The notes beneath the pieces were generated by a model, which searched no databases, had not been told where the DNA came from, and was given only the letters and a program-made list of their open reading frames with translations. Positions 62-9,632 of a stretch of DNA of 9,738 nucleotides are shown piece by piece (positions within the stretch are counted from its first letter, which is position 1; each line of letters starts with the position of its first letter). This DNA is from Gemmatimonadota bacterium (lineage in GTDB: Bacteria > 4572-55 > J002): the NCBI GenBank assembly GCA_003697105.1, contig RFFQ01000041.1:1-9738 (forward strand), written 5' to 3'. The position numbers and the translations under genes are program-made.

Positions 62-90
62 TTGACAAACTCGGGTTAAATTGATATATC
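62..90 (+). promoter_or_regulatory. Sigma-70-type promoter of the nos operon
   Basis: A perfect -35 box TTGACA (62-67) is followed by a 17 bp spacer and a -10-like TATATC (85-90). It lies just after the upstream terminator and about 100 bp before the first start codon. The same TTGACA/17 bp geometry occurs before the rrf2 gene at 9072-9100, which supports both. Transcription would begin near 97, inside the first operator copy. Confidence 0.7.
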
Positions 91-96
91 CCATAT

Positions 97-116
97 ATAA
101 GATATAAGACTCTTAA
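97..116 (+). promoter_or_regulatory. Operator copy 1 of the nos leader (putative Rrf2 site)
   Basis: The dyad reads ATAAGA-8 bp-TCTTAA. It begins six bases after the -10 box, so it covers the expected transcription start. It aligns base for base with the copy at 153-172 and with the rrf2 operator at 9105-9124, with few mismatches. It also contains a smaller perfect palindrome TAAGA-C-TCTTA (105-115). Binding by the Rrf2 regulator encoded at 9142 is inferred from the shared sequence. Confidence 0.6.
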
Positions 117-152
117 AACTTAATAATCTGTCTAAAATTTTTTAATTCTTAA

Positions 153-172
153 TTAAGATAAAATACTCTTAA
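153..172 (+). promoter_or_regulatory. Operator copy 2 of the nos leader (putative Rrf2 site)
   Basis: The sequence TTAAGA-TAAAATAC-TCTTAA is identical over all 20 bases to the site at 9105-9124 in front of the rrf2 gene. It lies 56 bp downstream of copy 1 and shortly before the ribosome binding site of the cytochrome gene. An extra TCTTAA abuts it on the left, making a perfect 12 bp palindrome at 147-158. Its place well downstream of the start suggests cooperative repression or a transcription roadblock. Confidence 0.7.
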
Positions 173-192
173 AACTTATAATGGAGTCCACC

Positions 193-720
193 ATGTCGAA
201 AAAAAGCACCCTTTTCATTGCCATTTTCGTTCTCTTTATTTACCCGATAGCAGGTATTACTGTTGCGGCTATCGTGATCTATCAAAATCCCGATTTTGAG
301 CCGGTCAAGATGTGGCAATTTGTAACCCGCGAAGACCCCGTAAACGAGTATGGGCTAACCGAATTCCAAATGAAGCACGGGGTTGGTCCCTTTACAAGCG
401 AAGTAAAGATTCCAACTCAGATTGATGAAAATCTTGCTAAAACAGGGGAAGCGGTTTTTCAAGTCAAATGTTCCGGCTGCCATAAATTGGACAAAAAATA
501 TGTGGGTCCGCCCCTGCGGGGAGTAACCATGTATCGCAGCCCGACGTATATCCTGAATATGATTCTTAATCCCGGTGAAATGGTCAAAAGACATCCCATT
601 GCCAAAGGGTTGCTTGCCCAACACTATACCGTGATGAGTCCCCAAAATGTCACTGAGGACGATGCCCGGGCAGTATTGGAATTTTTACGATACGATTTTG
701 AAGTACAATCCGCTAATTAA
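193..720 (+). CDS. Membrane-anchored monohaem cytochrome c of the nos operon
   Basis: A probable electron carrier that feeds N2O reductase. The 175-residue protein has one N-terminal hydrophobic helix (residues ~6-29), probably an uncleaved anchor, and a periplasmic class I cytochrome c domain with a single haem motif CSGCH (residues 93-97). A likely distal methionine ligand lies in the TVMSPQN segment near residue 148. The GPPLRG motif after the haem site is typical of the fold. I chose the ATG at 193 because GGAG (183-186) sits six bases before it. The in-frame ATG at 181 has no ribosome binding site. It is the first gene of the operon, 50 bp before nosZ, a position known from Bacteroidetes-type nos clusters. 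NosR and NosGH are absent from the window, so this cytochrome may link a bc or alternative complex III to NosZ; that role is inferred. Confidence 0.9.
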   Translation: MSKKSTLFIAIFVLFIYPIAGITVAAIVIYQNPDFEPVKMWQFVTREDPVNEYGLTEFQMKHGVGPFTSEVKIPTQIDENLAKTGEAVFQVKCSGCHKLDKKYVGPPLRGVTMYRSPTYILNMILNPGEMVKRHPIAKGLLAQHYTVMSPQNVTEDDARAVLEFLRYDFEVQSAN

Positions 721-770
721 AAGCGGACATTTTTATCATTCCTTCACCTTTTAGCAAGGAGGCATTATCA

Positions 771-2750
771 ATGCTTTTCTCACGTTCAACACGTTGGAGT
801 GCACTCAGCACTATTCTGATTCTCGGTCTTGCCGGTTTATTTTTATGGGGTTGTCCCGCAAAAAAGCCCCAGCAGAACCAATCTCTGATGAGTTCCGGCG
901 ATGCCGCGAGCCAAGTTTATGTGGCGCCGGGTCAATATGATGAGTTTTATGGCTTTTTCTCCGGCGGATTTAGCGGGCAGGTAACCGTTTATGGGTTACC
1001 GTCAGGCAGATTATTCAAGATCATTCCGGTTTTTTCGCAATTTCCCGAAAATAGCTACGGCTATTCAGAGGAAACAAAAGCGATGCTCATGACCTCCTAC
1101 GGGTTTGTTCCGTGGGATGATTCGCACCATCCGGAACTGTCCCAAACTAATGGTGTTCCGGATGGGCGCTGGCTCTTCATTAATGCCAATAATACCCCGC
1201 GGATTGCTCGAATTGATCTAAAAACATTTGAAACCGATGAAATTATTGAAATTCCAAATTCCGGTGGGAATCACGCCTCGCCGTTTTGCACGATGAACAC
1301 GGAATATGTCGTGGCATCCACCCGGTTTAGTGTGCCGATTCCCAATGAAGATGTTTCCATTGAAACCTACAAAGAGAATTTCAAAGGGACGATCACCTTT
1401 ATTAAAGTGGCTGAAGATGGTGATATGGAAATTGCCTTCCAGATTTTGGTCCCGGGGTTTAATTATGACCTCTCCCATTCCGGTAAAGGTGCATCGCATG
1501 GCTGGTCATTCTTTACCTGCTATAATACGGAGCAAGCCAATACGTTGCTCGAAGTGAATGCTTCCCAAAATGATAAAGATTTTATTGCCGCGGTGAATTG
1601 GAAAAAAGCGGAAGAATATGTCGCCCAGGGTAAGGCGAAAGAAATGCCTGCAACCTATTTCAATAACAAAATGAATCATAAGACGCATATCGCCGAATCC
1701 AAAGTGGGGAAGACGGTCAAGGTATTGACCCCCGCCGAATGCCCCGGCTTGATCTACTATCTGCCAACACCGAAGTCCCCCCACGGGGTTGATGTGGACC
1801 CAACCGGAGAATACATCGCCGCTGGCGGGAAATTGGCAACGGTGATTCCGGTACACTCCTTCTCTAAAATGTTAAAAGCGATTGAAGATAAAGCCTTTGA
1901 AACTGAAATTGATGGTATTCCCGTATTAAAATACGAAGCGGTCATGGCGGGTGAAGTGGAAAACTGCGGTTTAGGACCCTTGCACACGGAATTTGACGGG
2001 AACGGATATGCTTATACCTCTGCATTTATCTCCTCAGAAGTCGTCAAGTGGAAAATTGGAACGTGGGAAGTGGTTGACCGCATCCCGACCTATTATTCCA
2101 TTGGTCACTTGATGATCCCCGGTGGTGATAGTCAAAAGCCGTGGGGTAAATATCTGGTCGCCTTAAATAAGATCACAAAAGACCGCTACCTACCCACCGG
2201 ACCCGAACTGTGCCAATCCGCACAATTAATCGATATTTCCGGCGATAAAATGAAATTATTACTCGACTTCCCCACGATGGGTGAACCCCACTATGCTCAA
2301 GCCATTCCAGCGGATATTTTGATGCCCAACGTGACCAAAATATACCCACTGGAAGAAAATCAGCACCCTTATGCCGCCAAAAGCGAAGCCGAAACCGGCA
2401 TGACCCGTGATGGAAACACGGTGCACATCAAAATGACAACCATTCGGACACACTTCGCCCCGGATAATCTGGAAGGGGTGAAAGTAGGGGATAAAGTGTA
2501 TTTTCATGTGACAAATCTGGAACAAGATTGGGATATTCCGCATGGCTTTGCCATGAAAGGTGCCAATACTGCTGAATTGCTAATTATGCCGGGTCAAACC
2601 CGTACCTACGTTTGGGAACCCCAAGAACCCGGGGTGTATCCCTTCTATTGCACTGACTTTTGTTCCGCGTTGCATCAGGAGATGTCGGGTTATGTCCGGG
2701 TCTCTCCTAAAAATGCCAACGTGTCATTTAAGTATCACGTGGGTGAATAA
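771..2750 (+). CDS. nosZ: Nitrous oxide reductase, clade II, Sec/lipoprotein-type signal
   Basis: Reduces N2O to N2 in the periplasm. The 659-residue protein begins with a hydrophobic Sec signal ending in LFLWGC (Cys28), with no twin-arginine motif, as expected for clade II. The N-terminal seven-bladed propeller supplies seven CuZ histidines: H119 and H120 in DDSHHPE, H168, H338 (SPHG), H406 (LHTEF), H446 (GHL) and H507 (EPHY). The C-terminal cupredoxin domain holds CuA: H591, then CTDFCSALHQEM with C627, C631, H635 and M638. The Trp that gives the CuA backbone ligand in Pseudomonas NosZ is Asp629 here. AAGGAGG (756-762) lies eight bases before the start. All copper ligands are present, so the enzyme should be active. 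If Cys28 is lipidated, NosZ is tethered to a membrane. Confidence 0.98.
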   Translation: MLFSRSTRWSALSTILILGLAGLFLWGCPAKKPQQNQSLMSSGDAASQVYVAPGQYDEFYGFFSGGFSGQVTVYGLPSGRLFKIIPVFSQFPENSYGYSEETKAMLMTSYGFVPWDDSHHPELSQTNGVPDGRWLFINANNTPRIARIDLKTFETDEIIEIPNSGGNHASPFCTMNTEYVVASTRFSVPIPNEDVSIETYKENFKGTITFIKVAEDGDMEIAFQILVPGFNYDLSHSGKGASHGWSFFTCYNTEQANTLLEVNASQNDKDFIAAVNWKKAEEYVAQGKAKEMPATYFNNKMNHKTHIAESKVGKTVKVLTPAECPGLIYYLPTPKSPHGVDVDPTGEYIAAGGKLATVIPVHSFSKMLKAIEDKAFETEIDGIPVLKYEAVMAGEVENCGLGPLHTEFDGNGYAYTSAFISSEVVKWKIGTWEVVDRIPTYYSIGHLMIPGGDSQKPWGKYLVALNKITKDRYLPTGPELCQSAQLIDISGDKMKLLLDFPTMGEPHYAQAIPADILMPNVTKIYPLEENQHPYAAKSEAETGMTRDGNTVHIKMTTIRTHFAPDNLEGVKVGDKVYFHVTNLEQDWDIPHGFAMKGANTAELLIMPGQTRTYVWEPQEPGVYPFYCTDFCSALHQEMSGYVRVSPKNANVSFKYHVGE

Positions 2751-2761
2751 TCCGTAAATAG

Positions 2762-2792
2762 GGCTTGCCATGTTCCAAAAGCATGGCAAGCC
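2762..2792 (+). other. Intercistronic RNA hairpin between nosZ and nosB
   Basis: A perfect 11 bp inverted repeat, GGCTTGCCATG (2762-2772) and its complement (2782-2792), encloses a nine-base loop. No T-run follows, and the next ribosome binding site starts six bases later. It is therefore not a standard intrinsic terminator. It more likely stabilises the 3' end of a processed cytochrome-nosZ mRNA or attenuates transcription, so that NosZ exceeds the maturation proteins. Confidence 0.7.
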
Positions 2793-2807
2793 TGCTCAGG
2801 AGACGTT

Positions 2808-3413
2808 ATGAAAATGACATCACGAATCTTATTTGCAGTCGCCGTATTGATGCTCATCGGGGCTTATTTTTTACCGCTGTGGCAAATTATGCTGGAAGCC
2901 CCCCAATACCCAGAGGGGATCGGGTTGATTATTTGGTATAATGACATTGTGGGCTATAAGCCAAATGATCTAAATAATGTAAATGGATTAAACCATTATA
3001 TTGGCATGAGACCCATTGAACCTGAAAACATTCTGGAACTCAAAATTATTCCTTACATTATTGGTTTTATGATTCTCTTTGGGCTGTTGGGGGTCATCCT
3101 CGGTCGTAAAAAATGGCTATATGCGTGGGTCATCACATTAATGATTCTTGGAATCGTGGGATTAGCAGACTATTACCGGTGGGGATATGACTACGGACAT
3201 AATTTGGACCCAACCGCGGCAATTAAAGTCCCGGGGCAATCCTACCAGCCACCGCTGATCGGCTCTAAGAAAATATTGAATTTCACGTCCTATTCGTATC
3301 CGGCAACGGGGGGCTGGATGATTGCAATTTCATTTGTGATTGCAGTACTTGCCGCGATCCACACCTCTAAGTTGTGCCCGCTAGACCGGTTACGGCGGAG
3401 GTTACACCCATGA
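2808..3413 (+). CDS. nosB: NosB-like four-helix membrane protein of clade II nos clusters
   Basis: A 201-residue integral membrane protein with predicted helices at about 7-26, 80-99, 104-122 and 169-186. Two extracytoplasmic loops lie between helices 1-2 and 3-4. The first carries GLNHYIGM (60-67) and the second an aromatic DYYRWGYDYGHNLDP stretch (121-135). A membrane protein of this kind directly after nosZ is a hallmark of clade II clusters; in Wolinella succinogenes NosB is needed for N2O respiration, but its mechanism is unknown. The start is supported by AGGAG (2798-2802). The stop overlaps the nosL start as ATGA, so the two are probably translationally coupled. The assignment rests on position, topology and recognised motifs; the biochemical role is not visible. 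The C-terminal tail is arginine-rich and probably cytoplasmic. Confidence 0.8.
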   Translation: MKMTSRILFAVAVLMLIGAYFLPLWQIMLEAPQYPEGIGLIIWYNDIVGYKPNDLNNVNGLNHYIGMRPIEPENILELKIIPYIIGFMILFGLLGVILGRKKWLYAWVITLMILGIVGLADYYRWGYDYGHNLDPTAAIKVPGQSYQPPLIGSKKILNFTSYSYPATGGWMIAISFVIAVLAAIHTSKLCPLDRLRRRLHP

Positions 3414-3862
3414 AGCGACTCATTGGACTTTTAATTCTTTTGATGGTGGTCACCGGCTGTTCCCCGTCACCGGTACCCATTAATTACGGGGAAGAGAGTT
3501 GCGATTATTGTAAAATGATCATCATGCAACCCAAATATGGCACTGAATTGTTGACCCGAAAAGGAAAGATATATACCTTTGATTCCGTAGAGTGTCTGGT
3601 TGCGTTTTATCTCAAGGAAGAAGTGCCCCACGCCGAAATTCACTCCCTCTGGGTACCGGATTTTGATTCACCGGCGGTCGAATTTCTCGATGCCACCACT
3701 GCGGTTTACCTCCGTAGTGAAAACCTACGAAGCCCCATGGGACTCCATTTAACGGCGTTTCGGGATGTCCCTCAGGTCAAAGCGGCACAGCAGCAATATG
3801 GCGGGGGCATGTTTGCGTGGAACGAAGTTGTAGAACTGGTTAAAAAGGAATGGCAACCGTGA
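3410..3862 (+). CDS. nosL: NosL, copper-binding lipoprotein (CuZ assembly chaperone)
   Basis: NosL delivers Cu(I) to apo-NosZ during assembly of the CuZ site. The 150-residue product has a lipoprotein signal ending in VVTGC (Cys17), so it is probably membrane-anchored in the periplasm. The family's metal-binding segment is visible as SCDYCKMIIM (C31, C34, M36, M39). The conserved FDSVECL motif follows (D58, C62). The chosen start is the ATG at 3410, overlapping the nosB stop by four bases, with GGAGG at 3397-3401. A longer in-frame ORF from 3374 lacks this ribosome binding site and would bury the signal peptide. The gene lies directly before nosD, as in most nos clusters. It overlaps nosD by four bases if nosD starts at GTG 3859. 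Confidence 0.93.
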   Translation: MKRLIGLLILLMVVTGCSPSPVPINYGEESCDYCKMIIMQPKYGTELLTRKGKIYTFDSVECLVAFYLKEEVPHAEIHSLWVPDFDSPAVEFLDATTAVYLRSENLRSPMGLHLTAFRDVPQVKAAQQQYGGGMFAWNEVVELVKKEWQP

Positions 3863-5112
3863 GCCAATGGCGACAGACCATTTTGACGGTACTGATGCTC
3901 CTGAGCAGTCTGGCCCCGTCACTTTCGGCAAAAACATACTGGGTTGATCCCTCCGGGGCATTTTCCTCCATCCGTGCGGCGCTGGCACACGCGACGGATG
4001 GCGATACCCTTCACGTAGCCCCGGGTATTTACCGGGAAGGTGCAATCACCATCGATAAATCAATCCACGTGATCGGACACAACCTGCCTCAAATCGACGG
4101 TGAAGGAACGTACCAGATTATCACCGTGGTAGCCGATAGTGTCCATATTGAAGGTCTTCATTTGATGAACGTGGGTGTCAGTTTTACCCAAGATAATGCC
4201 GCGATTAAATGTGACGCCGTAGAAGGATGTGTCATTGAGAATAACACCATCAGCAACGGCTTTTTTGGGATATACCTCGCAAAATCAGCGAATTGTGTGG
4301 TGAAAAACAACCAAATTAAGGGGGAAGCGGTTCGTGAAGTCAACTCCGGCAACGGTATTCATCTGTGGTATTGCAAGAACATTCTTATCGAGGGTAATAC
4401 CGTGCGCCAACACCGCGACGGTATCTATTTTGAATTTGTGGAACACGGCACCGTACGAAACAACCTGAGTGAGAAAAATCTGCGCTATGGCTTGCACTTT
4501 ATGTTTTCCCATCATTGCCGCTATGAACAGAATCAATTTCAGCAAAACGGCGCAGGCGTAGCAGTTATGTACACGCAGGATGTCCACATGGTCAATAATC
4601 GCTTCCAAAAAAATTGGGGAGCCGCTTCATTTGGATTGTTATTAAAAGATATTCGTGACAGTGAAATTACCCAAAACCATTTCGTCGAAAATACGGTCGG
4701 TATCTATGCCGAAGCATGTGATCGGGTGGTTGTCAGCGAAAACCGGTTTGAACAGAACGGCTGGGCAATTAAACTGATGGCAAATTCAATGGATAACACC
4801 TTCCGGCGCAATAATTTCTTGGTAAATACCTTTGATGTGGCAACAAATAGCCGTCAAAACTTCAATACCTTTGAAGGCAACTATTGGAGCACCTACCGGG
4901 GTTACGACCTAGACCAGGACGATGTCGGTGATGTTCCCTTTCGCCCGGTACGGTTGTTTTCCCTAATTGTTGAAAAACAACCCCCGGCACTCATTCTGCT
5001 GCGGAGTTCGTTCATTGGTCTCCTCGATATTGCAGAACGGGTTTTTCCGGTATTAACTCCAGAAACCCTGATCGACCCCTCTCCGGCAATGATGCCAGTT
5101 ACGGTGGAATAA
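3859..5112 (+). CDS. nosD: NosD, periplasmic beta-helix protein for NosZ maturation
   Basis: NosD works with the NosFY ABC transporter to mature the copper centres of NosZ. The protein (417 residues) has a Sec signal peptide with likely cleavage at SLSA/KT (after residue 24). Next come many right-handed parallel beta-helix turns with repeated N-N-x-I/F-x-x-N-motifs (the carbohydrate-binding/CASH fold), spanning about residues 40-350. The C-terminal segment with PPALILLRSSF and LTPETLIDPSP is typical of NosD and separates it from generic beta-helix proteins. I prefer the GTG start at 3859: AAGGA (3845-3849) is nine bases before it but touches the ATG at 3850, leaving no spacer. The GTGA overlap with the nosL stop implies coupling. 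The alternative start at 3850 adds only three residues. Confidence 0.95.
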   Translation: MSQWRQTILTVLMLLSSLAPSLSAKTYWVDPSGAFSSIRAALAHATDGDTLHVAPGIYREGAITIDKSIHVIGHNLPQIDGEGTYQIITVVADSVHIEGLHLMNVGVSFTQDNAAIKCDAVEGCVIENNTISNGFFGIYLAKSANCVVKNNQIKGEAVREVNSGNGIHLWYCKNILIEGNTVRQHRDGIYFEFVEHGTVRNNLSEKNLRYGLHFMFSHHCRYEQNQFQQNGAGVAVMYTQDVHMVNNRFQKNWGAASFGLLLKDIRDSEITQNHFVENTVGIYAEACDRVVVSENRFEQNGWAIKLMANSMDNTFRRNNFLVNTFDVATNSRQNFNTFEGNYWSTYRGYDLDQDDVGDVPFRPVRLFSLIVEKQPPALILLRSSFIGLLDIAERVFPVLTPETLIDPSPAMMPVTVE

Positions 5113-5137
5113 GACACTCATGGCAAAGGAATTCCCG

Positions 5138-5848
5138 ATGATTGGAATCGTGAATTTGAATAAAAAATTTGGTAAACTGCATGTGTTGAAAGATGTCAGT
5201 GTCCAAATTGAACGCGGATGCGTCAGCGCAATTGTGGGCCCCAACGGTTCTGGAAAAACAACGTTGATAAAGTCCATTTTAGGCTTGGTGAAGCCCAGTT
5301 CAGGACAAATATTTGTCAATGGTATTCAAATCAATGGGGATTGTGCCTATCGCCAGCAAATTGGTTATATGCCCCAAGTTGCCCAATTTCCAGAAAACTT
5401 GACCGTCCGCGAGATTTTACACCTTGTAAAAGATTTGCGGGGAAATCCCACCGATCTTAATGAAACGCTATTTGACCAGTTAGGGCTGGAAAAAGAGCTT
5501 GATAAACGAATGCGTACCCTCTCAGGAGGTACGCGGCAAAAAGTCAGCGCCACCCTCGCCTTCCTGTTTAACCCGAAAATCCTAATTCTGGATGAACCCA
5601 CTGCCGGTCTAGACCCCGTTTCCAGCAGTATCCTCAAAGATCAGATTCAACAGGAGAAAGCTAAAGGTAAAACGGTCATTTTGACGTCACATATTATGAG
5701 CGAGATCGAGGAACTCTCCGATAATATTATCTTTCTGTTGGAAGGCACTGTCCGCTTTGAAGGTGCCATCAAAACGCTAATTGCCGGAACAAATCAACAA
5801 AACTTAGAGCGAACCATTGCTCACATTATGATGCAAGGTGTTGCATGA
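5138..5848 (+). CDS. nosF: NosF, ATP-binding subunit of the NosFY ABC transporter
   Basis: Cytoplasmic ATPase that drives the NosFY complex, which acts with NosD in CuZ assembly (a sulfur species has been proposed as the cargo). The 236-residue protein shows the Walker A GPNGSGKTT (residues 34-42), ABC signature LSGGTRQK (128-135), Walker B ILILDEP (148-154) followed by the D-loop AGLD, and switch histidine H185 in LTSHIMSE. All catalytic motifs are intact. The start at 5138 is preferred because AAAGGA (5125-5130) lies seven bases before it and the product then begins MIGIVNLNKKFG, as expected for NosF. The ATG at 5120 has no convincing ribosome binding site. The stop overlaps the nosY start (ATGA), the usual arrangement for an ATPase-permease pair. 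Confidence 0.96.
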   Translation: MIGIVNLNKKFGKLHVLKDVSVQIERGCVSAIVGPNGSGKTTLIKSILGLVKPSSGQIFVNGIQINGDCAYRQQIGYMPQVAQFPENLTVREILHLVKDLRGNPTDLNETLFDQLGLEKELDKRMRTLSGGTRQKVSATLAFLFNPKILILDEPTAGLDPVSSSILKDQIQQEKAKGKTVILTSHIMSEIEELSDNIIFLLEGTVRFEGAIKTLIAGTNQQNLERTIAHIMMQGVA

Positions 5849-6630
5849 AGACCATTATCAAAGTCATTAAATATGAATTTCATGATATTTTCCGTAGCAA
5901 GTGGCTCATCGCCTATCTCCTGTTTTTCCTGATGGTTACCGATACATTGTTCCGGTTTGGGGGGGGCGGCAACCGTGTCATTTTAAGTTTGATGAATCTT
6001 GTCATTTTTGTTATCCCCCTGATTAGCATCCTATTTGGCACCATGTATCTGTATCATTCGCAGGAATTTATCAAATTGTTGCTTTCGCACCCCATTCACC
6101 GGCGTTCCTTGTTTGCAGGAATGTACTTAGGGTTGGCAATTCCCCTTTCGCTTAGTTTTTGGTTGGGTGTTAGTATCCCTTTTGCCTACCATGATGATGG
6201 CTCCAACCTGATGGCGTTGGGCATGCTTCTAATGTCGGGTGTATTCCTGACACTGATTTTCACGGCGCTGGCATTTCTAACCGCGGCTATTTTATCCGAT
6301 AAAACGAAAGGGTTTGGCGTGGCGATCTTGGTTTGGTTGTTCTTTGTTGTCATTTATGATGGCTTAATCTTGTTGACGGTCTTTATCTTTGCCGACTATC
6401 CCCTTGAACAACCGCTGATCATTCTCAGTTTATTCAATCCGATTGATCTTGCCCGAATTTTGATGTTATTAAGTCTTGATATTTCCGCATTAATGGGTTA
6501 CACGGGTGCTGTATTTAATAAATTTTTGGGGAGTACGTGGGGCATGGCGCTCTCGATCTTCTGTTTAGCACTGTGGAGCATCTTACCTTACATCGCGGCA
6601 AGCCGGCAGTTCCAAGATGAAGACTTTTAA
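5845..6630 (+). CDS. nosY: NosY, membrane permease of the NosFY ABC transporter
   Basis: The 261-residue integral membrane protein has about six hydrophobic helices, starting with the WLIAYLLFFLMV segment near residues 19-30. It is the ABC-2-type transmembrane partner of NosF. The segment SLFNPIDLARIL (about residues 196-207) is a conserved NosY mark. The start overlaps the nosF stop by four bases. A run of eight G residues (5959-5966), coding for a glycine stretch near residues 39-41, is a potential slippage site: one added or lost base would truncate the protein early. The 3' end overlaps the start of the next gene by 14 bases. The C-terminal RQFQDEDF tail is probably cytoplasmic. Confidence 0.95.
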   Translation: MKTIIKVIKYEFHDIFRSKWLIAYLLFFLMVTDTLFRFGGGGNRVILSLMNLVIFVIPLISILFGTMYLYHSQEFIKLLLSHPIHRRSLFAGMYLGLAIPLSLSFWLGVSIPFAYHDDGSNLMALGMLLMSGVFLTLIFTALAFLTAAILSDKTKGFGVAILVWLFFVVIYDGLILLTVFIFADYPLEQPLIILSLFNPIDLARILMLLSLDISALMGYTGAVFNKFLGSTWGMALSIFCLALWSILPYIAASRQFQDEDF

Positions 6631-7075
6631 GAACATCAGCCCAGCCATCAGCTTCATGCTGATGATGGCGTTTTGCTGGGAAGGCGCATTCATTGTGTTA
6701 CAAACTCCCCTAACCTCGGGCACGCGCGCGCCACAATCATGTTGCCAAGAGGGTCATTGTTGTTGCCCACCTTCCACCTGCCAGTGCAACCACCCCCATA
6801 ATAACTATAATACCCCCACAACAACGGGTGAAATTTTAGTTTTGCGCGGTTGTACCCCCTCCTCCGAACAACTTCAACCTCAGGCAACAATTCAACTGGC
6901 CATACTTCGCCGGGTTTGGTTTCCAATGTTCTTGTGCAATACTCGCTACCGGTGGCAAGATACCCCCCAATGGTTCTCCCAACTTTGGATTCATGATATT
7001 TTTCGCCCCCCTCGACGGCACACCCCCATCCTGTATCATTATATCACTCGATCTGCAAGACGACACATGTGTTGA
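6617..7075 (+). CDS. Unrecognised cysteine-rich small protein of the nos operon
   Basis: I do not recognise this 152-residue protein. It starts within nosY (14 bp overlap, different frame) without a strong ribosome binding site, so translation is probably coupled to nosY. Residues ~11-29 form one hydrophobic segment, either a signal peptide or an anchor. A metal-ligand-rich patch follows, SCCQEGHCCCPPSTCQCNHP (residues 41-60), with seven Cys (42, 43, 48-50, 55, 57) and His47, 59 and 61. Further Cys lie at 20, 79, 107 and 152. The C-terminal half is rich in Arg, Trp and Gln. Its place between the copper-maturation genes and a copper receptor suggests a periplasmic copper-binding role, which is inference only. 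Six runs of five or six C after 6781 set the base composition apart and could mean a frameshift in the 3' half. The ORF could be spurious, but the motif argues against that. Confidence 0.65.
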   Translation: MKTFKNISPAISFMLMMAFCWEGAFIVLQTPLTSGTRAPQSCCQEGHCCCPPSTCQCNHPHNNYNTPTTTGEILVLRGCTPSSEQLQPQATIQLAILRRVWFPMFLCNTRYRWQDTPQWFSQLWIHDIFRPPRRHTPILYHYITRSARRHMC

Positions 7076-7120
7076 TTCATAAATACATATCTACGTTTAT
7101 ATAGAACTAGGAGATCATCG

Positions 7121-8983
7121 ATGAAATACGTTTGGATATTTTGCAGCATGGTGGTGCTGTGCGGTTTCGGGTATAACCCAGAGCTGTTTGCAGCGCCCGA
7201 CACACTGAAAGTGTATGATTTAGACCCGGTGAGTGTCATGGCGACTCGAATTCATGTGGGCGAAGAGGAATCCCCGATAACAAAAGATTATGCAAGCCAG
7301 ATACTTACCCAAAATGGATTCTCCGTGATTCGGAAGGGGATCGGGCTTGCCAACGACCTATATACCGATGGGTTTAAGCGCGGCGATATTACGGTAGTGA
7401 TCGATGGGGAACACTACCCCAATAGTTGCCCGAACCGGATGGACTCACCAATTACCCGCATCAACCCCTTGGAAATGGAGTCCATTCTACTGTCCAAGAC
7501 CAATACGTCCGCCGCTTGTGGCTTGTCCGGTCTAGTCACATTTAAACGGGCACTTCCCCGCGAGGACTTGCGGATCAAAGCTGGGTTTACTGCAGACCTC
7601 GGTCATCAAGAAAATATGGATGGCACAATCTTGCTGGAAAGTCACCAACATCAGGTCACCGGGCGCTATGTGTATGGTCGCGGTTACAAAACCGCTCACG
7701 GCAAGGATTTCACCGCCCTATACGGCTATACCGGTGAACCAACCTACCAATTGCGTGAAATCACTTGGCAAGGGCGCCCCGGTGAGTGGCAATACGGTGG
7801 GATGATCGCCGTGACCACAGATGTTATGTTTCCATATTTGCGTATGGATGAGCGCGAAAATGTCCTCTGGAACACCTTTTTAGCCTATAAAGGACACAAA
7901 ATTTATGTGAATCGCACCTACCATCTTATGAATAGCGCGTTGCGGGCTGAAGCCATGCCGATGGAAACGAAAGCCACAAATCTGACAATTGGATTGACCG
8001 GAGCACATTATGACCTGTACTACCGCCGGTGGGATGCCGATAATACCATCAGCGGTATGATGATGAACCAGCCGGTACAAATCAACAACGACCTAATACC
8101 AAACTTGGGACGCTTTTCGGCAAATCTGCACCATACGTTTGATCTTCAACCAGTGCAAATCTCGCTTAAATTGGGGGTAACTCACGATCAGATTGATGAA
8201 AACCGGTTGCCCTTTTACAAATCCTTATACCCTGAAGCGAGCGATCACCGGTGGTTTATACCGTTTGCGGTAGGACTCAGCTATACAAAGGCAGTATCAT
8301 CCCGGCTCGCCGGAGGAATATCCGCCGAAGTTGCCTCCGAACCCCCACAACCGGAATACCTGTACATTGCCGTCCAACGTCCAATGGGCAAACCCACGTG
8401 GATGGGACGTCCCGACCTGAAGGCACCCCTCCGGGCAACACTCCGCCTCCAATGGACTCATCCCCATCTGCGATTCACTATTTTTGGCACGCATGTTTGG
8501 GATTATGTGAATCTGACATCCGTTGAGCACGACCAACAACCGTACATGACGTATCGCAATATTGACGGGCTAATGGCTGGTTTCAATCTGCAAGTAGATT
8601 GGCCGTACTTGAGTGCTAATGCTAGTTACATCTGGGCAGAGAATCTAACACAAAATACACCCTTGGCAGAGATACCGCCGTTTCAGGTGCAAACCACGCT
8701 CAAATCACCCCACTACAATGGCATGTCCGGTTTCCTGCGTCATACTTACGCGGATGCCCAAACTCGGGTCGATGATTCTTTAAATGAGCGTGTCACACCC
8801 CACTGGAATCGTGTGGATGCTGGAATGGCTTACCAAACCGGTATGGTTAAATGGAGCCTTGAGGTGGTAAATCTAACCAATGCGGTCTATTACCAGCACT
8901 TGTCCTACTTGCGCGACCCGTTTGCGGCAGGCAATATCGTCTATGAACCGGGGCGTTATGTCCGGTTTTCCATTGCCTATTAA
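7121..8983 (+). CDS. NosA/OprC-like TonB-dependent copper receptor
   Basis: An outer-membrane transporter, probably for copper needed by NosZ. The 620-residue protein has a signal peptide (cleavage near residue 25), a TonB-box-like region around VYDLDPVSVMATR (31-43), a plug domain to about residue 145, and a beta-barrel ending in the aromatic VRFSIAY. The plug holds CPNRM (C103, M107), matching the CxxxM copper site of Pseudomonas OprC and the CPNRMD signature of NosA/OprC receptors. The barrel holds HLM (H268, M270) in a stretch with more Met (279, 281), matching the second half of the OprC site (HxM). It is shorter than OprC (about 720), so extracellular loops are probably reduced. AGGAGA (7109-7114) precedes the start. 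The 45 bp gap after the cysteine-rich gene shows no promoter, so it probably belongs to the nos operon. Confidence 0.88.
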   Translation: MKYVWIFCSMVVLCGFGYNPELFAAPDTLKVYDLDPVSVMATRIHVGEEESPITKDYASQILTQNGFSVIRKGIGLANDLYTDGFKRGDITVVIDGEHYPNSCPNRMDSPITRINPLEMESILLSKTNTSAACGLSGLVTFKRALPREDLRIKAGFTADLGHQENMDGTILLESHQHQVTGRYVYGRGYKTAHGKDFTALYGYTGEPTYQLREITWQGRPGEWQYGGMIAVTTDVMFPYLRMDERENVLWNTFLAYKGHKIYVNRTYHLMNSALRAEAMPMETKATNLTIGLTGAHYDLYYRRWDADNTISGMMMNQPVQINNDLIPNLGRFSANLHHTFDLQPVQISLKLGVTHDQIDENRLPFYKSLYPEASDHRWFIPFAVGLSYTKAVSSRLAGGISAEVASEPPQPEYLYIAVQRPMGKPTWMGRPDLKAPLRATLRLQWTHPHLRFTIFGTHVWDYVNLTSVEHDQQPYMTYRNIDGLMAGFNLQVDWPYLSANASYIWAENLTQNTPLAEIPPFQVQTTLKSPHYNGMSGFLRHTYADAQTRVDDSLNERVTPHWNRVDAGMAYQTGMVKWSLEVVNLTNAVYYQHLSYLRDPFAAGNIVYEPGRYVRFSIAY

Positions 8984-8999
8984 AATTCGCGGATGAAAA

Positions 9000-9036
9000 G
9001 CGGCTGCCGGCTCTCAAACAAAGGGCTGGCAGTCGC
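9000..9036 (+). terminator. Strong hairpin after the TonB receptor, probable operon end
   Basis: A 15 bp stem with three G-T wobbles (9000-9014 with 9022-9036) and a seven-base loop (CAAACAA) lies 16 bases after the receptor stop codon. No T-run follows directly. It may be a U-tract-poor terminator or an mRNA-stabilising end. It separates the nos operon from the rrf2 promoter at 9072. Confidence 0.55.
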
Positions 9037-9071
9037 GTAACCATGGCTAAGAATGCCTTTCATTTTGGGGG

Positions 9072-9100
9072 TTGACAATTTGCAAAAAAAGATGTATCTT
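9072..9100 (+). promoter_or_regulatory. Sigma-70-type promoter of the rrf2 regulator gene
   Basis: TTGACA (9072-9077), a 17 bp spacer and TATCTT (9095-9100) form a good promoter 42 bp before the start codon at 9142. The -10 box is the left arm of a perfect palindrome (9095-9112) that runs into the operator at 9105, which points to autoregulation. Confidence 0.75.
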
Positions 9101-9104
9101 AATT

Positions 9105-9124
9105 TTAAGATAAAATACTCTTAA
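9105..9124 (+). promoter_or_regulatory. Operator at the rrf2 promoter (putative autoregulatory site)
   Basis: The 20-base dyad TTAAGA-TAAAATAC-TCTTAA is identical to positions 153-172 in the nos leader. It begins four bases after the -10 box, covering the expected start of transcription. A further TCTTAA half-site (9097-9102) lies just upstream, forming TATCTTAA-TT-TTAAGATA (9095-9112). Recognition by the adjacent Rrf2 protein is inferred from position and repetition. Confidence 0.75.
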
Positions 9125-9612: not shown

Positions 9613-9632
9613 TTCAGATAAAAGAGGCTTAA
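9613..9632 (+). promoter_or_regulatory. Degenerate operator copy before the last gene
   Basis: TTCAGATAAAAGAGGCTTAA matches the 20-base nos/rrf2 dyad at 16 positions and keeps most of both arms (TTcAGA and gCTTAA). It lies 26 bases before the start codon at 9659. No clear -35/-10 pair is visible, so the gene may also be read from the rrf2 promoter. Confidence 0.45.

Follow-up and report, generated by a model that had tools for sequence, protein, structure and literature searches.

The locus raises the question of how a clade II nos operon, which encodes a reductase for the greenhouse gas N2O, is controlled, and whether the Rrf2-family regulator encoded a few genes further on is the one that controls it. 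The window, i.e., the whole stretch of DNA that was analysed (9,738 nucleotides), carries in this order genes for a c-type cytochrome, NosZ, a membrane protein, NosL, NosD, NosF and NosY, a small open reading frame, a TonB-dependent receptor gene and rrf2 (Table 1). The answer considered likely here is that the Rrf2 protein is a dedicated, autoregulated repressor of nos, which would bind a dyad found at four places in the window and would most likely respond to NO. If this circuit is real, its operator would make it possible to predict from sequence when the enzyme is produced in many uncultured N2O reducers, and culturable relatives offer a way to test it; the predicted pairing of an Rrf2 operator with nos appears to recur in many bacterial phyla.

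Two of the gene products in the window matched no Pfam or NCBIfam model: the membrane protein encoded after nosZ, a homolog of which follows nosZ in nearly all of the 80 loci described below, and a 152-residue open reading frame with a cysteine-rich stretch, CCQEGHCCCPPSTCQC, located between nosY and the TonB gene (6617–7075). The gene after rrf2 is probably that of a small cupin resembling the one at L027:8644–8991 (PF07883), a weak assignment made from 26 residues. Just upstream of the nos promoter, at 25–58, lies a hairpin with a T run behind it, which probably terminates transcription of the gene ahead of the operon.

Table 1. Genes, promoters and predicted operators of the window
Feature	Position	Strand	Basis or remark
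nos promoter	62..90	+	TTGACA 62–67, spacer 17 bp, TATATC 85–90
Operator O1 (predicted) ATAAGATATAAGACTCTTAA	97..116	+	starts 6 bp after the nos -10 box
Operator O2 (predicted) TTAAGATAAAATACTCTTAA	153..172	+	20 bp before the cytochrome c ATG at 193
c-type cytochrome, first nos operon gene	193..720	+	PF00034
nosZ, clade II (Sec-type) N2O reductase	771..2750	+	TIGR04246, 960.8 bits (above cutoff of 625)
Conserved membrane protein	2808..3413	+	adjoins nosZ in nearly all relatives
nosL	3410..3862	+	PF05573
nosD	3850..5112	+	TIGR04247
nosF, ABC ATPase	5120..5848	+	PF00005
nosY, ABC permease	5845..6630	+	PF12679
TonB-dependent receptor, copper-receptor-like	7121..8983	+	TIGR01778, 55 bits (below cutoff of 472)
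rrf2 promoter	9072..9100	+	TTGACA 9072–9077, spacer 17 bp, TATCTT 9095–9100
Operator O3 (predicted), identical to O2	9105..9124	+	4 bp after the rrf2 -10 box, before rrf2
Rrf2-family regulator, 151 aa	9142..9597	+	PF02082
Operator O4 (predicted) TTCAGATAAAAGAGGCTTAA	9613..9632	+	between rrf2 and the next gene
Gene start, cut by the contig end	9660..9738	+	weak basis: 26 residues only

Dyads and promoters in the window

A sequence-only reading of this DNA had claimed that one 20-mer is present exactly at two places, with a near copy at 97 and a 16/20 copy at 9613, and that its dyad is symmetric at seven of ten base pairs; every one of these sites was found, and the symmetry is as described. The exact copies lie in the nos leader (O2) and in the rrf2 promoter (O3), the near copy (O1) differs from them by 3 mismatches, and O4 agrees with them at 16 of 20 positions. 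Since the leaders are AT-rich, the repeats could conceivably be chance AT-rich sequence or transcript structures, but this is vanishingly improbable: 200 shuffles of the sequence yielded 0 copies of the 20-mer, and both the uniqueness of the sites in the genome and their conservation across phyla (see below) contradict chance. The genome (4.18 Mb) was covered by pattern searches with the reversed pattern as a control: apart from the four window copies it has no site within one mismatch of the relaxed pattern WTMAGAYAAAADASTCTTAA, whereas at 3 mismatches the genome-wide count equals that of the control. The rest of the genome encodes four weaker Rrf2 paralogs, and the stretches that carry them contain no further pattern match.

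The same reading had placed a copy four to six bases after the -10 box of both promoters, and this distance holds (6 for the copy at 97 and 4 for that at 9105), but the copy at the nos promoter is the near copy and not the exact one at 153. The latter lies 56 bp downstream of O1 and adjoins the ribosome-binding site; pairs of dyads spaced by 58, 58 and 59 bp precede the cytochrome c gene in three relatives (L047, L068 and L030, respectively). Among the relatives, many dyads are located just downstream of TTGACA-N17-TATNTT promoters: with kinship ignored, promoters matching at 10/12 positions or better and ending between -2 and +6 from the dyad accompany 28% of the dyad sites vs 0.5% of the control positions. 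The location of dyads directly after promoters fits repression. It is improbable that the Rrf2 protein instead activates nos, or acts both ways like the NsrR of Magnetospirillum; an Rrf2 protein has been reported to act on nitrogen genes in both ways (PMC11014258), and some dyads have no recognisable promoter ahead of them, but wherever the promoter is clear, the dyad is found at the -10 box or downstream of it and not upstream of the -35 box.

Conservation of the dyad and its pairing with rrf2

The dyad was scanned for in front of nosZ and rrf2 genes of relatives, the check proposed along with the sequence-only reading, and was found to be conserved in the closest nosZ relatives. One NosZ scan had collected 80 clade II nosZ loci, with record titles naming Ignavibacteria, Kapabacteria, Calditrichota, KSB1, Rhodothermales, Saprospiraceae, Neomarinimicrobiota and others, and 41 of the 80 have an rrf2 homolog within the fetched stretch. 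De novo discovery of palindromic motifs in the leaders of these 41 rrf2-bearing loci, with the window excluded and kinship ignored, gave a log-likelihood of 237 vs 63–84 in shuffles, and the same procedure applied to the loci without a nearby rrf2 scored 65. The motif obtained is the window's dyad, with AGA-N8-TCT as its best conserved part, and it stands before rrf2 and before the cytochrome c–nosZ genes; in the window and its relatives it takes the form TTMAGAY-N6-RTCTKAA, with the core GAY-N6-RTC. The identical 20-mer precedes rrf2 in CP070707.1, where TAAAGATAAAAGAGTCTTAA precedes the cytochrome c gene, and close forms are present in L035 and L099 (two each) as well as in L027, L054 and L059. 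Dyads in both the rrf2 and the nos leaders occur in several phyla, with the form ATCAGAY-N6-RTCTGAT in Ignavibacteria and AAAAGAC-N6-GTCTTTT-like forms in some Bacteroidota.

Counts that ignore kinship among the loci place 73 sites above 15 bits in intergenic DNA (~162 kb) vs 17 in coding DNA (~1.21 Mb), and dyad-passing leaders at 53/112 for rrf2 and cytochrome c genes vs 29/456 for other genes. A matrix trained on Ignavibacteria only, when applied to the other loci, parts their targets from the controls (p 4e-8, again with kinship ignored), with only 6 of these targets above the 99% control level. When the training was confined to the non-Ignavibacteria loci, it missed the dyad and converged on an unrelated repeat, this training set being diluted because it contains loci without rrf2. 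A strict core test, which demands 6/7 symmetric pairs and is far less sensitive than the matrix, was passed by 22/86 targets vs 16/460 controls (p 5e-10, kinship ignored). The dyad was not detected in about half of the 80 loci, and it is absent from several Neomarinimicrobiota (Fidelibacterota) in which rrf2 follows nos. The one genome of the same phylum that was compared has no dyad at its nos cluster nor at its best Rrf2 gene; taxonomically this genome is the nearest one, but it is uninformative here, since its nos cluster differs in type from the window's. That cluster (L158:6267–10903, G001:C81) holds two adjacent nosZ-like genes, one of which also matches the cytochrome c query.

The recognition helix of the Rrf2 proteins (at about residues 38–41, in loci L023–L099) reads SFHF, PKEF or P(R/M)HF, alongside dyad arms of the types TTAAGA, ATCAGA and AAAAGA. 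A one-to-one code between helix type and dyad arm looks likely, with exceptions in L048 and L055, and is hence just a lead.

Pairing of the dyad with rrf2 was also followed where the two genes are apart, in 13 genomes whose nos locus carries a dyad and lacks rrf2, with 8 dyad-negative genomes with any homolog as controls. All 13 encode a strong Rrf2 homolog elsewhere (E ~6e-50 or better), and this distant best rrf2 is preceded by the dyad in 10 of them vs 0/8 controls, always within 75 bp of the rrf2 start and mostly at 0–7 bp. Two genomes have an rrf2 apart from nos and, behind it, a membrane Fe-S gene under the dyad (Fer4_5 in L142, a similar protein in L144). The dyads, their conservation, their position at promoters and their pairing with rrf2 are thus supported, and a shared operator, autoregulation and a repressor position, as predicted from sequence, are strongly supported because of the conservation across phyla, the architecture of the promoters and the presence of the same dyad before rrf2 genes far from nos. 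That the dyad belongs to another regulator, such as one of the Crp/Fnr family, which would govern both nos and rrf2, is highly improbable. Binding of the dyad by Rrf2 is a prediction, and Crp/Fnr proteins have been implicated in the control of nosZ in other clade II bacteria (PMC11539149), but the dyad tracks rrf2 genes even at a distance from nos, Crp/Fnr sites such as TTGAC-N4-GTCAA or TGTGA-N6-TCACA differ from it (PMC1274295), and its core GAY-N6-RTC resembles the GAC-N7-GTC of the Rrf2 protein RisR (PMC9973013).

The Rrf2 protein and its candidate signal

The rrf2 product belongs to the Rrf2 superfamily by both general models (PF02082, 107 bits, cutoff 30; TIGR00738, 105.2 bits, cutoff 73.3), and its predicted structure is the Rrf2 winged-helix fold (AlphaFold pLDDT 90.5), with CymR, IscR and RsrR as the top structural matches (Z 15–17). 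Its scores are below the cutoffs of the models for NsrR (NF008240, 57 of 182 bits), IscR (TIGR02010, 77.5 of 207.55 bits) and RirA (NF008886, 65.6 of 193 bits). The candidate cluster ligands are C92, C99, C105 and H108, of which the three cysteines are invariant among 18 aligned homologs and the histidine is nearly so. Their pattern, C92-X6-C99-X5-C105-X2-H108, keeps the order of IscR and is one residue longer than its Cys-X5-Cys-X5-Cys-X2-His. Streptomyces NsrR holds its cluster through Cys93, Cys99 and Cys105 together with Asp8 of the other subunit, which is tied to Arg12 (PMC5411485); the window's protein keeps Arg12, has Ile at position 8 and a Cys7 near the Asp8 position. An Fe-S cluster is thus probable. 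Cys7 was considered as a universal mark of these proteins and rejected, as it needs about 6 changes on the tree and is absent from some rrf2 genes preceded by the dyad.

The following scheme may be proposed, in which binding to DNA, repression, the cluster and the role of NO are inferred. The dimeric winged-helix protein, probably with its Fe-S cluster, would bind the 20-bp dyad at the four places and repress its own promoter as well as the clade II nos operon. Sitting just after the -10 box it would block RNA polymerase, and the second nos site 56 bp downstream could add a roadblock or a cooperative contact. The protein would let go once the cluster is altered, the most likely agent being NO, a companion of N2O where denitrification takes place; this would allow expression of nos, of rrf2 and of the gene that follows rrf2.

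NO is favoured as the probable signal because relatives share the dyad in front of RIC genes (ScdA_N plus hemerythrin, in L099 and L046), of genes with a hemerythrin domain (L045, L060) and of a multihaem cytochrome gene (L128), and by analogy with NsrR, of which the RIC genes (dnrN/ytfE) are classical targets (PMC1274295; PMC11526790). At L128:1501–3019 (CP070707.1) the dyad is followed by a degenerate rrf2 frame without cysteines and then by a multihaem cytochrome (PF13447), which looks like a relative of hydroxylamine oxidoreductase. In Roseithermus a dyad (L059:6419–6438) lies in front of the homolog of the TonB-dependent, copper-receptor-like gene, so that copper supply may be co-regulated with nos.

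The same regulator and operators could instead respond to O2, redox state or Fe-S supply, in the manner of IscR or RirA, which is possible but rather unlikely. The closest solved sequences to the protein are those of IscR (E 9e-11), the IscR-type H108 is kept, and NosZ is oxygen-sensitive. NO-related genes were not found in the window's genome among the families tested: ScdA_N/RIC, Hcp and NrfA (cytochrome c552 nitrite reductase) gave no match, and the haem-copper oxidase family is represented by a single gene, so that any NO would have to be supplied from outside, by neighbours. Against such a signal, the genes behind the additional dyads of relatives are those for RIC, hemerythrin and haem cytochromes, and no isc or suf gene was seen behind a dyad; moreover, repression by the intact cluster would switch nos off in anoxia, unless it is the apo form that represses. 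A further proposal, which is quite unlikely, is that these proteins form a separate Rrf2 subfamily, spread across several FCB-group phyla, that serves N2O respiration specifically and not NO stress in general; where an N2O reducer has none of the tested NO-related genes, as is the case for this genome, the signal might then be N2O itself, copper or O2, perhaps via a cluster with a fourth cysteine (Cys7).

Relation to known regulators

The sequence-only reading had presented the circuit as new or little described, and this has to be divided, as control of nos by Rrf2 proteins has precedents. Mros1101, an Rrf2 protein encoded next to the nos cluster of Melioribacter roseus, is proposed from gene order as the regulator of that clade II nos operon, in a passage that describes no operator (PMC3534657); in a genome labelled M. 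roseus (L070), dyads precede the nos-linked rrf2, which has a different cysteine pattern. In sediments of Ushuaia Bay, rrf2 genes are enriched on clade II scaffolds (PMC6264515), a prediction for Neisseria places denitrification, N2O reductase included, under NsrR (PMC1274295), and in Magnetospirillum NsrR binds the nosZ promoter (PMC11014258). The operator and its breadth across phyla do appear new: no description of either was found in open-licence papers, although the subscription literature could hold one.

NnrR, DNR, FNR and Nss also control N2O reductase genes, but they belong to the Crp/Fnr family and use other sites, and no gene of these types is present in the window. IscR is the best match among the solved sequences and shares the Cys-Cys-Cys-His pattern, but with CX5CX5C rather than CX6CX5C, and the targets predicted here are nos and not Fe-S assembly genes. 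NsrR is alike in its Rrf2 fold, in the near coincidence of three cysteine positions (93, 99 and 105 in Streptomyces), in Arg12, in autoregulation, which is predicted here, and in the RIC genes that are predicted dyad targets in the window's relatives; it differs in its operator (gATGyAT-N5-ATrCATc vs TTMAGAY-N6-RTCTKAA), and the window's protein has a Cys at position 7, lacks Asp8 and has a predicted local regulon of four sites. RisR, an Rrf2 protein of Myxococcus xanthus, recognizes a dyad with GAC half-sites and AT-rich flanks in promoters that it represses, as would be the case here, but its spacer is one base longer and it controls isc and suf (PMC9973013).
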